A stretch of 22,153 nucleotides of DNA from a virus, in IMG/VR virus record IMGVR_UViG_3300009605_000171, positions 1-22,153 of that record; one strand, 5' to 3'. A model generated the notes under the pieces. The model saw nothing but the letters and a program-made list of their open reading frames with translations. It searched no databases and was not told where the DNA came from. Each line of letters begins with the position of its first letter. Positions within the stretch are counted from its first letter, which is position 1. Made by a program: the position numbers and the translations under genes. Below are positions 15,915-20,596 of the stretch, piece after piece.

Positions 15915-16703
15915 CTATGTTAAATGATACTTAACTGTAATGTTTAGTGAATAATCAGAATTAACACTATCTGATTCAAAAAATGCTAAAATAACTTTCC
16001 CTGCTGCAACTGCTGCACTATCTATTGTCCAAGATGATGAATAAGGTTGCTCTGAACCTGCGTTTGTCGTATCGCTATTGTGAGCGAGTAATGTTCCATT
16101 TGTTAGACAAGATGTAGCTCCTGATGTAAAATCGTATGAGAAAGCATGAAATCTTGTTGTATCTCCAGTAGCATTATCTGCTCCCTCTAGTGAAACAATA
16201 GCATCAATGCTTATTGCATCAGGTAAATACCAACAATATCTAACAATATCACTTGCCCTCTCATCATTACTATCTGCTGTTGTAAATGTAGTTGCAGGAT
16301 CTGTTCCTGTTCCGAATGATGTTTGGTCGTTTGTAACTGCTCCCATCGTAGCTGAGAAAGGCACAGGATGATGCGCCCCTGCTAACCAAGAATCTGAAAC
16401 ATCATTTGCAATACCAAAGTGTGCATATTGTGTATTAAGATAATTACCAAGAGCAGATACCTTGCTATTACTAGAATCCACTACTAATAATGATGTTCCA
16501 CCCTGATCTGCTACACTAAAAGCTGCTGTTGTATTATCATTTACAGGTCTTATTATAACAACATCATCAGACAATCTAAGTGCTGTGTCTGTTCCTTCTC
16601 CATCTTTAATAATTCTGGTAGAAGTATCAACGCCACTATTAGAGTTATCCATCTGTAATACATCTTTATAAGATCCCTTTACTGTTTTTCCTGATAAGCT
16701 CAT
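15915..16703 (-). CDS. Fibre-like structural protein, 262 aa
   Basis: ATG 16703 is preferred over the TTG three bases upstream because TGATG couples it to the previous stop and GAGG lies at good spacing. The first 90 residues carry repeated strands (TALRLSDDVVIIRPVNDN, then LLVVDSSNSKVSALGNYLNT) like phage fibre or spike stems. From about residue 110 there is a compact beta domain ending VILAFFESDSVNSDYSLNIT. The next gene upstream has the same plan, so the two look like paralogous or exchangeable appendage subunits. No catalytic motif is seen. Confidence 0.6.
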   Translation of the reverse strand: MSLSGKTVKGSYKDVLQMDNSNSGVDTSTRIIKDGEGTDTALRLSDDVVIIRPVNDNTTAAFSVADQGGTSLLVVDSSNSKVSALGNYLNTQYAHFGIANDVSDSWLAGAHHPVPFSATMGAVTNDQTSFGTGTDPATTFTTADSNDERASDIVRYCWYLPDAISIDAIVSLEGADNATGDTTRFHAFSYDFTSGATSCLTNGTLLAHNSDTTNAGSEQPYSSSWTIDSAAVAAGKVILAFFESDSVNSDYSLNITVKYHLT

Positions 16704-17392
16704 CAATCCCTCATTGTAAATTTATATGTTATATTGCCTGACCATATACCTGATATTCCTGATACATATTGAAATGCTGCATATACGCTATCTCCTGCGT
16801 TTAATGAAATGTTAGGATCAGCTGTTGTAACATTGATTGTATCTCTTGACGATGTCAAAGTGTCTGTTGTTCTTAAAGTAACATCAACAGTTGATGCTGT
16901 TAAATGAACTACTGAACCAGTCCATGTTTGAAAATAAATAATATTCTCAGATGAGTTCCCCTGATACCCAACGATGTTTGCTCCTGCATAATGACAATCA
17001 TAAGGAACAACTATGCCTGATACTGAGTTTGGTGCTGCAATCGATATTTCTGTTCCTAGTGTTGTGGAATCGTCTGTATCAAAAGCATCCCACTTCATTG
17101 GGTAGTTAGAATCATCTACATCTCTAAAGTATGTTCTGCTTGTTGTAGTATTACTAAAATAATAATGCTGTGTTAAACTAAACTTAGATGGGAATATTCC
17201 TGTTGCACTTCCACTAACAACAAGATCTCCCTCAACATATACATTCTTATCCCCTAACAACAATCCTGTTGAATCCTCTCCAATCTTAACTGGTTTTCTA
17301 TCAGTTCTAAGAGGGTTGTCTAATCTTAGATGCTTATCAAGATTTTCAGATTCTTTTTTAGTTGTTACTCTTGTTGTTGATCCATAAGCCAT
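16703..17392 (-). CDS. Fibre-like structural protein, 229 aa
   Basis: The 229-aa protein begins with a charged segment (STTRVTTKKESENLDKHLRL), then a short stem (LLLGDKNVYVEGDLVVSGSA, about residues 44-63) typical of trimeric phage fibre stems. A beta-sandwich-like C-terminal domain follows, ending SGNITYKFTMRD. It shares length, strand pattern and ending with the 262-aa gene that follows. It overlaps its neighbours by 1 base on each side. Likely a virion appendage; the receptor is unknown. Confidence 0.6.
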   Translation of the reverse strand: MAYGSTTRVTTKKESENLDKHLRLDNPLRTDRKPVKIGEDSTGLLLGDKNVYVEGDLVVSGSATGIFPSKFSLTQHYYFSNTTTSRTYFRDVDDSNYPMKWDAFDTDDSTTLGTEISIAAPNSVSGIVVPYDCHYAGANIVGYQGNSSENIIYFQTWTGSVVHLTASTVDVTLRTTDTLTSSRDTINVTTADPNISLNAGDSVYAAFQYVSGISGIWSGNITYKFTMRD

Positions 17393-17646
17393 TATTCGTC
17401 ATACCATTTCTTGTCATCAGTTTTCTTCTTTGATTTTAATTGCTTCATTTGATTCTTTAAGAATATTATATCATCTTTCATCTTTCCAATATCAACATTA
17501 TTCTCATTAGGTTCTTCAACATATTTCTTAATGGGAATCATATCATTTTTTAATGCTTTCTTGGTGTTCTTAATCTCTTTCTTAACATCAGCTATCGTTT
17601 TACCAATCGTTGCTACTGTCTTTATTGCTGTGAAGATATTAAGCAT
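17392..17646 (-). CDS. Small coiled-coil protein, 84 aa
   Basis: This is an 84-residue, Lys-rich, mostly helical protein. The N-terminal 20 residues (MLNIFTAIKTVATIGKTIAD) are amphipathic and could lie on a membrane. Residues about 52-75 (DIGKMKDDIIFLKNQMKQLK) have a heptad pattern. It overlaps the 93-aa membrane protein by 8 bases and the fibre gene by 1. It may belong to the lysis or membrane group or be a fibre assembly factor. I do not recognise the family. Confidence 0.55.
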   Translation of the reverse strand: MLNIFTAIKTVATIGKTIADVKKEIKNTKKALKNDMIPIKKYVEEPNENNVDIGKMKDDIIFLKNQMKQLKSKKKTDDKKWYDE

Positions 17647-17920
17647 TGTCTGATTTTAACCCTTTGATTATTCCTCTGACCATAGATCCGAATATGTTGT
17701 CGATAGCATCCACTATGTAAGGCTCAACTGTCTTGTTCCAAACATCCTTGCTCCAACTCCACTTCGCTAGACCTAGTGTGCAAGTTCTACCTAGTCCAAA
17801 AAAGGTAGACTCTACAACAGCACAGATCTTATCGTTTGGGATCTTCTTTAGAATCACAGCTACGATTCCACCAGATCCAACTCCTACTATTGTTGCTATA
17901 TTATTAAATATAATGTCCAT
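17639..17920 (-). CDS. Small membrane protein, holin candidate, 93 aa
   Basis: Residues 3-24 (IIFNNIATIVGVGSGGIVAV and on) form a Gly-rich hydrophobic helix with KK directly after it. A second, weaker hydrophobic segment lies at about 32-53. The C-terminal half is a soluble helix (NKTVEPYIVDAIDNIFGSMV). Position close to the endolysin and size fit a holin or a holin-associated protein, but no holin signature is certain. AAGGAG lies inside the 3' end of the upstream gene, coupling the two. Other membrane-associated roles are possible. Confidence 0.55.
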   Translation of the reverse strand: MDIIFNNIATIVGVGSGGIVAVILKKIPNDKICAVVESTFFGLGRTCTLGLAKWSWSKDVWNKTVEPYIVDAIDNIFGSMVRGIIKGLKSDNA

Positions 17921-17923
17921 TCA

Positions 17924-18313
17924 TTACTCCTTATAGCCATTTGTTTTGAAATTACTTATATCTATTTTTTCCATTGGTCTTGTCATTATAAAATCTTTTA
18001 ATTTGCTATTCTGTATTTCCAAATCTTCTCCACCACTTATAAATGGTTCTCCATCAGTTGTGTAATCGACATTATACACGATAATTGAGCATTTAAACAA
18101 TCCAAGTCTAACAACCCTACCTGCATATTTCTTCCCCTCTATCCATATATATATACAATCTCCTATGTTAATCGAGTTGCCTGCGAAGATCTTAAACGAT
18201 TCTGTTAGTCCTTCTATTGTAGATCTGAATAATATCGCTAAAAAGCCAAGACAAAAAAGCCAACCATAGTTTCCTATAAAGTTTGTTCCAATATCCTTTA
18301 ATTGTTCTTCCAT
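17924..18313 (-). CDS. Minimal MscS-like membrane protein, 129 aa
   Basis: ATG 18313 is preferred to TTG 18331, which lies inside the upstream gene and lacks a ribosome binding site. Residues about 15-33 (NYGWLFCLGFLAILFRSTIE) are a membrane helix. Next come IFAG-NSINIGDCIYIWIEG (residues 42-60), G65-R-V-V-R-L, and LEIQNSKLKDFI (98-109). These match in order the TM3 to beta-domain signature of MscS channels (FxxGDxIxI, GxVxxI, IPNxxL). The usual first two helices and the C-terminal cage are absent. A channel-like or membrane-scaffold role next to the endolysin is inferred. I am fairly confident of the resemblance, less so of the function. Confidence 0.55.
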   Translation of the reverse strand: MEEQLKDIGTNFIGNYGWLFCLGFLAILFRSTIEGLTESFKIFAGNSINIGDCIYIWIEGKKYAGRVVRLGLFKCSIIVYNVDYTTDGEPFISGGEDLEIQNSKLKDFIMTRPMEKIDISNFKTNGYKE

Positions 18314-18317
18314 CCAT

Positions 18318-18560
18318 TTAGTTTTCCACAATGAGTGTTTCTAATCGTTTACCCCACTCATCAATCTTAGTTTCTAACTTTGCAACACTAACTTTCATAT
18401 CATTGATGTCATCATCAGCTTTGTTTATGCGAACAGCGTTCACATTTATATCTTTTTCAAAAGATTCTATCTTGTTTGATGTAATCCCTAGCGTATAAAT
18501 AAAAGTGCCTAGAATCGTTAATATTGTTAGTGATGTTCCGATTATGTTTTTATCCATCAT
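18318..18560 (-). CDS. Single-helix coiled-coil membrane protein (i-spanin-like topology), 80 aa
   Basis: Residues about 6-26 (IIGTSLTILTILGTFIYTLG) are a membrane helix close to the N-terminus. Residues 28-78 are a continuous charged coiled coil (KIESFEKDINVNAVRINKAD and on). This N-terminal anchor plus extended coiled coil is the topology of inner-membrane spanins, and it is next to the endolysin. However, no outer-membrane lipoprotein partner was seen, and it is shorter than most Rz proteins. A holin or antiholin role is the alternative. Two ATG codons are tandem; either could be used. Confidence 0.55.
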   Translation of the reverse strand: MMDKNIIGTSLTILTILGTFIYTLGITSNKIESFEKDINVNAVRINKADDDINDMKVSVAKLETKIDEWGKRLETLIVEN

Positions 18561-18562
18561 CG

Positions 18563-18967
18563 TTATTCTTCTTTCCCTAATTCAAAATGAGGTCGATCCT
18601 TAAAATCAGTATCTTTTATTTCAAAGTCACCATTCCAATCATTACCCCATATTAATTTTACTCCCATCTGCTTTGCTGTGCCTAGAACATATCCTGCAAA
18701 GTAAGCAAATCGTTCGTATTCTTTCCATCTGCCTTTTATCGGATAAGGAACGACATCAACAGCACGAGAAGGCTTACTATTATGACGACCATTAGGGTAT
18801 TTAACCTTTGAGTTCCCTCGTTCAAAGGCTTCATCTTGTTCTTTTTTTCCTCTGTGTCCTTTGAGAACTGAGCAATCCACGAATTGAATAACTTCATTGA
18901 ATACCTCTTGTAGTTTGGGATGACAAGTGGCTAATTGTTCCCTTGATTTCTTTCCAAAGCTAGGCAT
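18563..18967 (-). CDS. Endolysin, M15-type peptidoglycan L-Ala-D-Glu-type peptidase
   Basis: ATG 18967 (MPSFGKKSREQLATCHPKLQ) is the likely start. A TTG five codons upstream lies within the previous gene. The 134-aa protein resembles T5-type endolysins: FGKxSxxQL near the N-terminus, KGHRGKKEQ at 36-44, H62-x8-D71 (HNSKPSRAVD) and D124-R-P-H127. H62, D71 and H127 are the expected zinc ligands and D124 the catalytic acid position. These enzymes cut the peptide stem of peptidoglycan at the end of infection. There is no signal peptide or anchor, so export should need a holin, for which the next genes are candidates. An 8-base overlap couples it to the small gene before it. Confidence 0.85.
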   Translation of the reverse strand: MPSFGKKSREQLATCHPKLQEVFNEVIQFVDCSVLKGHRGKKEQDEAFERGNSKVKYPNGRHNSKPSRAVDVVPYPIKGRWKEYERFAYFAGYVLGTAKQMGVKLIWGNDWNGDFEIKDTDFKDRPHFELGKEE

Positions 18968-19166
18968 TATTATCAATAACAATTAATGTGAATATTTGTT
19001 GTCCGAATGATGTGCAAGTGATATTTAAATTAGATGTTCCGTCTATTGTTCCACCATTTGCAGTAATCCAATCTTGGACATCTTCAGGGAGAACTCCATC
19101 TGCATCTCCTGATGCTCCTACTATTTTAGAATTAGTATGTAAAAAAGTTTTTGCAACAATAGCCAT
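18960..19166 (-). CDS. Small hypothetical protein, 68 aa
   Basis: I do not recognise this 68-aa protein. It starts MAIVAKTFLHTNSKIVGASG, has a short acidic middle (GDADGVLPEDVQDWITANGG) and ends in a beta-like stretch. It is coupled on both sides (TAATG with the 51-aa gene, 8-base overlap with the endolysin). It follows the capsid gene and may be a small virion protein, such as a decoration subunit. That is context only. Confidence 0.55.
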   Translation of the reverse strand: MAIVAKTFLHTNSKIVGASGDADGVLPEDVQDWITANGGTIDGTSNLNITCTSFGQQIFTLIVIDNNA

Positions 19167-19321
19167 TATTTACCTTCCTTCTTCTTAGATTTCTTTGCTA
19201 CTTTTTTAAGTTCTTTTCCATCTTTATCACACTCAACAAATCTATCTTTTAATGATTCCATATCGTGTGTTGGGATCACTTGAATAACTACCCCATTTGG
19301 TTTTTTAAAAAATCTTTCCAT
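19166..19321 (-). CDS. Small basic protein after the capsid gene, 51 aa
   Basis: ATG 19321 follows AAGGAG at ideal spacing. The 51 codons (MERFFKKPNGVVIQVIPTHD at the start) end in a Lys-rich tail, AKKSKKKEGK, with the stop shared with the next ATG as TAATG. It begins just after the attenuator hairpin, so it is the first gene read by transcripts passing it. The residues FKKPNGVVIQV suggest a small beta hairpin. The family is unknown. Confidence 0.6.
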   Translation of the reverse strand: MERFFKKPNGVVIQVIPTHDMESLKDRFVECDKDGKELKKVAKKSKKKEGK

Positions 19322-19330
19322 TTTTTCTCC

Positions 19331-19363
19331 TTATAAAACGAGGGGAGCTTTTACACTCCCCTC
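19331..19363 (-). terminator. Attenuator/terminator hairpin after the major capsid gene
   Basis: GAGGGGAG (19340-19347) and CTCCCCTC (19356-19363) are perfectly complementary around an 8-base loop, the most GC-rich stem in the window. On the minus strand it is followed by GTTTTATAA, a weak U-tract, and then immediately by the next ribosome binding site. Partial termination here would give more capsid than downstream products. Confidence 0.65.
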
Positions 19364-19376
19364 AATTAATCAGTTA

Positions 19377-20318
19377 TTATGAAACATCTGACAAGATATA
19401 AACACCAAAACCATCGTGTATCTCTATCTCGCCCCAGAATCCAGTAGCAACATATTCTGTTGTTCTGAATGAAGCGTTACGTTCTGTTTCTATTCTCATT
19501 AATCCTTCAGGACCAATCGCTAATCCAACAGCACCTTTACTAAAAGCAAAACCAGCAGCATCGCCACCTGATCCTACATTCTCGTTTATTTGGTCTGACC
19601 AATAAACATCAAAACCAGCAATAGAGCCTACAACACCATTAGCTAATTTAGTTTGTGCTAGTGGATTATCTGCTTGAACTCCAGCAGATGGATCAATCAA
19701 TAATCCTGATAAACCTTTAGCACCCCAAACTTGTTTAGGAGATAATACTAGATTATAAGGCATTGGAGCACCTGCTGCTCTTAATTGTCGCATAGATCCA
19801 AATATGTGGTCTAATGCTAATGCTGTTCCTGCTCCACATTCAGTTTGACTAAATGCTTCGCCAAGTGTAACTAGATCATCATCAAGTTTTGCTGCAACTG
19901 CGTTTCCTAATACTGCTCCAACATTTCCTGTGTAGTCCTCTGCACTACCCATAGCTGCTAAATCAGACACATCTGTTCTGATAACGTGCTCTGATACTGT
20001 TACACTTCTAGCAGCAGTATCAATAGATGTCATTGTTGTATAATCTGCACCATCAGTTCCTGCTCCAACATCACTTGATCCAATCTTTGTATAATCTACA
20101 AATTGAACTGTAATAGCACCTTTAACAGCTTGTTTTGAAGTAACAAGTGGAAGCATTACATTAGAGTGATTGAAAGCAACAACTGCATCGCCAATAATCT
20201 TACCTAGACCACCAACTGTTCTACCTGATCCTGTGTCCGATACTGCATCAGCCATAAGATGATTACCTGCATAACCATTCTGTGTCCAACCTTGTAACTT
20301 ATTTAATAAATTAATCAT
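19377..20318 (-). CDS. Major capsid protein, HK97-fold-like, 313 aa
   Basis: This 313-aa protein follows the scaffold and a small gene, and it is rich in Ala, Gly, Val and Asp as capsid subunits are. Features of the HK97-type fold group include a long helix with LGNAVAAKLDDDLVTLGEAF (about residues 137-156), the segment DHIFGSMRQLRAAGAPMPYN, which reads as a spine helix plus loop, and a C-terminal GPEGLMRIETERNASFRTTE strand region. No N-terminal delta domain is apparent, consistent with a separate scaffold. AGGTAGG precedes ATG 20318, and the gene ends just before the attenuator hairpin. I am fairly confident of 'capsid' from order and composition. Confidence 0.8.
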   Translation of the reverse strand: MINLLNKLQGWTQNGYAGNHLMADAVSDTGSGRTVGGLGKIIGDAVVAFNHSNVMLPLVTSKQAVKGAITVQFVDYTKIGSSDVGAGTDGADYTTMTSIDTAARSVTVSEHVIRTDVSDLAAMGSAEDYTGNVGAVLGNAVAAKLDDDLVTLGEAFSQTECGAGTALALDHIFGSMRQLRAAGAPMPYNLVLSPKQVWGAKGLSGLLIDPSAGVQADNPLAQTKLANGVVGSIAGFDVYWSDQINENVGSGGDAAGFAFSKGAVGLAIGPEGLMRIETERNASFRTTEYVATGFWGEIEIHDGFGVYILSDVS

Positions 20319-20341
20319 AATTTATAACCTACCTTTTCAAT

Positions 20342-20596
20342 TTAATTTTTTATTATTTTACCATTCTTATCAAAACTAACGCCACCAAACAATCCTATTG
20401 AGTTGCTTGTTAATGATTTCCCTTGCTGTTGCCTATTGGCTCTTTCTTCAAGTTCATCTACATAAGTATCAAAATTCATATCTTGACCTTTATATTTAAC
20501 ATCACAATCTCCATCAGATTTCTTATCTAACTTCATATCATTCTTTGGATCAAGATCAACTCCGAATATTTCGCTATGTTTCTTACTCGTAGGCAA
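20342..20596 (-). CDS. Small hypothetical protein between scaffold and capsid, 84 aa
   Basis: This charged 84-aa protein (MPTSKKHSEIFGVDLDPKND at the start) overlaps the scaffold gene by 14 bases and ends just before the capsid gene. Its middle is acidic and helical (FDTYVDELEERANRQQQGKS), and a short beta end follows. No family is recognised. It may be a scaffold partner or a head-completion factor, by position only. Confidence 0.6.
   Translation of the reverse strand: MPTSKKHSEIFGVDLDPKNDMKLDKKSDGDCDVKYKGQDMNFDTYVDELEERANRQQQGKSLTSNSIGLFGGVSFDKNGKIIKN

Follow-up and report, generated by a model that had tools for sequence, protein, structure and literature searches.

A single-helix homologue of the MscS channel core in a late, often lysis-associated gene slot of uncultured ocean phages

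The gene and its cassette

The window (the whole stretch of DNA analysed, 22,153 nt) is a 22 kb fragment from IMG/VR, in which tRNA and Rfam scans gave no matches. Its minus strand carries a cassette in the order M15-type endolysin, transmembrane (TM) plus coiled-coil protein, mini-MscS (the subject of this report), 93-aa protein, 84-aa coiled coil and tail genes (Table 1). The mini-MscS gene opens with ATG, as read from the ORF and its translation, and matches exactly the 129-aa ORF named in a preliminary description of this DNA, which did not state the strand.

Table 1. Positions and characteristics of the features discussed, in window coordinates
Feature	Position	Strand	Remarks
M15-type endolysin	18563..18967	(-)	without signal or SAR segment; phrog_465, E 8.2e-36; Pfam Peptidase_M15_4 weak
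ORF within the M15 endolysin gene	18736..18897	(-)	+1 frame
80-aa TM + coiled-coil protein (family TMCC)	18318..18560	(-)	phrog_739 Rz-like spanin, weak, E 1.7e-4
mini-MscS protein	17924..18313	(-)	N-tail 1-11; membrane helix ~12-29 (TM3-like); amphipathic helix ~30-46 (TM3b-like); beta domain 53-101; short C-tail
93-aa small membrane-type protein (family F97)	17639..17920	(-)	3 nt downstream of mini-MscS
84-aa coiled-coil protein	17392..17646	(-)	downstream in cassette
Tail-tip-like protein, 1796 aa	3840..9230	(-)	dockerin type I repeats

The nearby endolysin mentioned in the preliminary description was identified as M15-type. The TMCC gene stops 4 nt ahead of the mini-MscS start, and members of the TMCC family are also found beside mini-MscS in four related loci (L003, L013, L016, L017). 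The spanin label given to this partner in the preliminary description is weak: the phrog_739 match is marginal, and no lipobox o-spanin candidate was found on the minus strand of positions 16500-20400. A two-component spanin pair was rejected, as the TMCC gene has no lipobox partner nearby. An AAGGAG motif stands at the end of the mini-MscS gene, just ahead of the ATG of the next gene, whose product belongs to a family with 108 ORFs in the related loci (F97) and matched no Pfam or PHROG family.

The M15 endolysin gene itself contains an ORF in the +1 frame, present also in L003, L013, L014 and L017, that encodes 53-61 aa with a charged N-terminal part and a strong C-terminal TM segment. Embedded ORFs of at least 50 aa with a hydrophobic segment were found in 63% of 75 distinct endolysin genes vs 2.9% in synonymous shuffles, synonymous sites in the embedded-ORF region were slightly more conserved (1.12 vs about 1.00), and none of 88 GH24 genes carried such an ORF. 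It is a candidate embedded holin.

Mini-MscS has a single hydrophobic helix, of modest hydrophobicity in the window protein (KD19 of 1.56) and clearer in its relatives (1.8-2.3). Neither hydrophobicity nor the AF2 model gave any sign of TM1 or TM2, and the C-terminal alpha/beta cage with its side portals is also absent, the protein stopping ~28 aa past the beta domain. The signatures SINIGD (residues 47-52, with the F of FxxGD replaced by I/L), GRVVRL (65-70) and IQNSKL (100-105) follow one another in the order FxxGD-type, GxVxxL and IQNxxL given in the preliminary description, which had also correctly recognised one membrane helix and the loss of the other MscS helices and of the cage. In an alignment of 35 divergent relatives, D52, I100, Q101 and N102 are invariant, as are the phage-specific positions T32, E34, K41, R66, R69, G71, K74, P90 and G94-G95. 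Most of the conservation falls in the TM3b and beta regions. The membrane helix (FIGNYGWLFCLGFLAILF-like) is variable; apart from the invariant G14 and G23 it has no conserved face, and it is not a Gly/Ala-rich, pore-lining helix of the TM3a kind. The N-tail has a mean net charge of -2.6, and an invariant K/R and an invariant K come directly after the helix; fold and charge pattern together suggest an N-tail outside, in the periplasm, and a beta domain in the cytoplasm, as for TM3 of MscS.

Relationship to MscS channels

Homology of mini-MscS to the TM3 plus beta-domain core of MscS channels is well supported by reciprocal profiles, profile-profile comparison and a fold search. In hhalign, the phage family scored 34.9 against the bacterial MscS core (57 sequences), compared with a maximum of 25.5 for 300 column shuffles of two kinds (150 in one set) and 10-14 for controls with other phage alignments. 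An MscS profile searched over all 18,119 ORFs from the viral loci collected here ranked the mini-MscS family first, with 39 of the top 40 matches. In the reverse direction, the phage-family profile (A6) searched over 398 Pseudomonadota genomes gave four matches at E ≤ 0.01, a threshold at which about four are expected by chance; all four are genuine MscS channels, and they align in register from TM3b through the beta domain. Members of both mini-MscS subfamilies gave weak PF00924 matches. Single sequences score below the Pfam gathering cut-offs, and scans with Pfam, PHROG and NCBIfam returned no model that recognises mini-MscS above cut-off. Searches of PDB sequences with the window protein (phmmer) and with the A1 and A6 profiles yielded nothing significant. 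An identity with DUF7464/phrog_5533 (0.018/0.046) was rejected because the match occurred in one member only.

The first AF2 model, from 13 near-identical sequences, was of low confidence (60.6); the alignment of 35 relatives raised the mean pLDDT to 75.5 (beta domain 80-86) and gave one long helix (residues 2-46) followed by four strands (53-58, 61-70, 74-84, 90-101). Its nearest PDB folds in Foldseek were MscS structures, which took the top nine places (probability 1.0, E 4e-3 to 1.5e-2) and were led by the miniature MscS of T. cruzi; the TM-scores were moderate (0.40-0.44), owing chiefly to uncertainty in the angle between helix and barrel. The model thus predicts an Sm-like beta-domain fold after the pore helix, as in the MscS superfamily; at least TM2 and TM3 (usually three or more TMs) are characteristic of that superfamily and are not found here. 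The match of helix and beta domain to MscS proposed in the preliminary description is upheld by profiles and fold alike, with no other beta fold ranking nearer. It is extremely improbable that the resemblance is convergent, with an unrelated Sm/SH3-like beta barrel carrying a TM anchor. Direct sequence scores under the family cut-offs and some Sm-fold matches lower in the Foldseek list could be read in that way, but the MscS structures outrank every Sm protein, the order and register of helix and barrel fit MscS, and the reciprocal search of the 398 genomes returned the four MscS channels and nothing else.

The best viral structural match of the model was the BFVD model A0A1B1IQW5 (138 aa; E 2e-9, TM 0.63, 25% identity), possibly a further mini-MscS subfamily in a named virus, as judged from predicted structures.

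Mini-MscS shares with E. coli MscS and other bacterial MscS proteins (PF00924 beta domain) the TM3b-to-beta register, the GD and I-x-N signatures and, by its sequence, what appears to be a cytoplasmic-type beta domain after the last membrane helix. It has kept the helix leading into the beta domain, the GD turn, the G-x-V/I-x-R/x-x segment and the I-x-N-x-K/Q strand end, but not TM1, TM2, the alpha/beta cage or the Ala/Gly-rich face of TM3a. Unlike MscS, it has Q in place of the P of IPN, a longer beta3-beta4 hairpin with an invariant GxP..GG, and the phage-specific R66, R69, G71 and K74. The closest counterpart in fold is the T. cruzi channel TcMscS (9bgq/9bgt/9bgu), an MscS core of similar length, which likewise lacks TM1 and the cage and is still a working heptameric mechanosensitive channel (PMC12334622). 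TcMscS, however, retains TM2 next to TM3 and an N helix, whereas the phage protein has one membrane helix. Mini-MscS is accordingly a variant of the MscS fold, homologous but without three defining channel features (TM2/TM3 pair, cage, TM3a face).

Phages with an MscS match are already on record: for gp51 of the Antarctic sea-ice phage PANV1, the authors obtained an HHpred match to the MscS-family structure 6RLD with a poorly predicted TM, and listed the protein under 'additional function' with no tie to lysis genes (PMC9239159). Our literature search found no paper linking MscS with phage lysis, none describing a single-TM MscS core and none placing such a core in lysis cassettes. Many uncultured ocean phages carry this single-TM MscS core, often beside their lysis genes.

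Distribution, constraint and gene context

About 215 IMG/VR stretches encode mini-MscS, in two subfamilies. Close relatives (77-88% identity) were found in 20 IMG/VR loci; the second subfamily (clade 2), reached by fetching more distant phages via the neighbouring tail gene and endolysin, is ~35-44% identical to the window protein, and its family scan matched 195 stretches. No relative was found in isolate phages by tblastn, and no close relative in GTDB species genomes by pattern search. Mini-MscS is therefore not a recently captured host gene; that origin was rejected on the lack of a close relative in GTDB contigs and on the nature of the four genome matches, which are ordinary MscS channels. 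Genuine MscS genes in INPHARED records were mostly on bacterial contaminant contigs or unannotated fragments and are not relatives of mini-MscS.

Between the window and its relatives, the mini-MscS proteins are 78-86% identical and the third codon positions 50-60% identical, with a dN/dS of about 0.04-0.07, the strongest constraint in the cassette; the endolysin, TM-coiled-coil and tail proteins diverge to 29-70% in the same comparison. Third codon positions are saturated, as in the neighbouring genes, which rules out recent horizontal transfer as the cause of the high conservation. By these sequence comparisons the gene is old in these phages and strongly constrained.

In nearly all loci, mini-MscS starts 0-12 nt past the upstream gene or overlaps it slightly, and that gene encodes a TM-coiled-coil protein, a small TM protein of ~48 aa or a metallophosphoesterase. 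An M15 or GH24 endolysin lies within 2.6 kb in 38 of the 63 loci; in the remaining 25, no endolysin was recognised in the examined flanks and mini-MscS follows a metallophosphoesterase. The lysis-like setting of the preliminary description, with the gene beside endolysins in related phages, is partly supported, by the 38 loci and by the slot exchange described below. The type of endolysin can change while mini-MscS stays (GH24 in L002, M15 in L013). Both types start directly with the enzyme domain, with no N-terminal hydrophobic segment visible, and no SAR or signal-anchor segment, as in a pinholin/SAR-endolysin pair, was found on the paired endolysins.

In 47 related loci (L190:3997-4287, L172:5146-5439 and 45 others), the slot of mini-MscS holds a single-TM protein of ~98 aa (phrog_18771), and the two never co-occur (47 loci vs 57 loci). 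One replaces the other, as a non-orthologous gene, in a late slot that is often associated with lysis. The phrog_18771 protein resembles mini-MscS in its place between endolysin/TM-coiled-coil and a 97-aa gene, in its short N-tail, its one TM and its cytoplasmic-type C-domain, and differs in that this domain is helical, with no MscS beta domain. Its shape suggested a BhlA/UviB holin, an identity that was not adopted; Pfam gave no confirmation.

Two further neighbours belong to clade 2. Metallophosphoesterases (phrog_221, phrog_284; one with an N-terminal zinc ribbon; e.g. L393:5219-5998, L248:2154-3368) either immediately precede mini-MscS or separate it from the endolysin in most loci of this clade. 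The ~48-aa small TM protein ('...TWIEWLPVVIRIAVGIASLVYL...'), coupled to clade-2 mini-MscS (L348:5066-5209, L248:3452-3595), had no informative family match and is another holin candidate.

Possible roles at the end of infection

At the close of infection, mini-MscS may have a part in opening the host membrane or in controlling it. We tentatively favour an accessory role, in which it would form a late membrane ring, small pore or primer in the manner of a pinholin, with another small protein opening the hole for the cytoplasmic endolysin. The protein is a member of the MscS fold cut down to the pore helix (TM3) and the Sm-like beta domain. Judging from the fold, the beta domains would assemble into a ring that gathers the membrane helices; in MscS and the T. 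cruzi channel this ring is a heptamer. Made together with the late genes, this ring might, less certainly, form a small or tension-sensitive pore or prime the inner membrane; it would then depolarise the membrane or time lysis, and a different small membrane protein of the cassette would release the endolysin.

Pinholins such as S68 of phage 21 contain two TMs, lack a beta domain and are paired with SAR endolysins. Mini-MscS would resemble S68 as a small phage membrane protein near endolysin genes that may form a heptameric pore, and is unlike it in its beta domain, its one TM and its lack of a SAR endolysin partner. The accessory role is consistent with the MscS homology and with the precedent of a channel without cage or TM1 (PMC12334622), with the position between endolysin/TM-coiled-coil and tail genes, the endolysins in 38 of 63 loci and the exchange in 47, and with the strong constraint and the N-tail charge, which fits the orientation of MscS TM3. 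Against it stand the membrane helix without conserved face or Ala/Gly-rich TM3a packing, the TM2 that the T. cruzi precedent retains, and the 25 loci in which a metallophosphoesterase, and no recognised endolysin, accompanies the gene. The exchange also does not prove a holin role, because phrog_18771 carries no known function.

A less probable, though possible, reading is that the MscS-type beta ring is membrane-anchored but non-conducting, a scaffold or regulator acting as an antiholin-like timer or as an adaptor for the TM-coiled-coil, metallophosphoesterase or small TM partner. The concentration of conservation in TM3b and beta domain, the single, lipid-exposed and variable TM, and the close packing of the gene against a metallophosphoesterase or against membrane partners that change between loci all point this way; yet the core shared with MscS is exactly what surrounds the permeation path of the miniature channel, and holin TMs vary too. 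It is unlikely that the ring is an osmotic safety valve or host-physiology gene, opening under tension not to promote lysis but to prevent premature bursting or to tune the osmotic response of the host. The 25 loci without a recognised endolysin nearby, the strong conservation, the MscS homology and the mechanosensitivity of TcMscS without TM1 or cage (PMC12334622) would suit such a valve, but the gene sits among late structural and lysis-type genes and has no close cellular relative, the TM1/TM2 tension sensor is missing, and the same slot can be filled by an unrelated single-TM protein without a channel-like beta domain.

That mini-MscS is the main, endolysin-releasing holin is very unlikely, even though it is a small, late, endolysin-proximal membrane protein (129 aa with one TM, encoded in the endolysin's cassette and on its strand) that exchanges with another single-TM protein. 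The M15 and GH24 endolysins, lacking any SAR or signal segment, need a micron-scale hole to get out, and a small MscS-like pore alone could not export them; the lumen of a heptameric pinholin pore measures about 2 nm (PMC9636201). Other small TM candidates (F48, F97 and the ORF embedded in the endolysin gene) are equally good, which together with the cytoplasmic endolysins argues against an export role. Returning to a conducting ring, it is doubtful, though conceivable, that the single-TM MscS core defines a class of phage lysis proteins not described before: holins or pinholins that act as a mechanosensitive 'valve', are built on the smallest known MscS, are common among marine phages and can be exchanged for an unrelated protein with one TM.

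If mini-MscS conducts, no smaller MscS-type channel is known: with one membrane helix and the beta domain it would undercut even the miniature channel of T. cruzi, and the parts of MscS required for assembly and tension gating could be tested on it. Lysis in ocean phages, where most holins go unrecognised, would also become accessible at the molecular level, because current family libraries miss mini-MscS entirely.

Elsewhere in the window, the large tail-tip-like protein contains dockerin type I Ca-binding repeats in two stretches (Pfam Dockerin_1, 5.3e-14), which are unusual for a phage structural protein.
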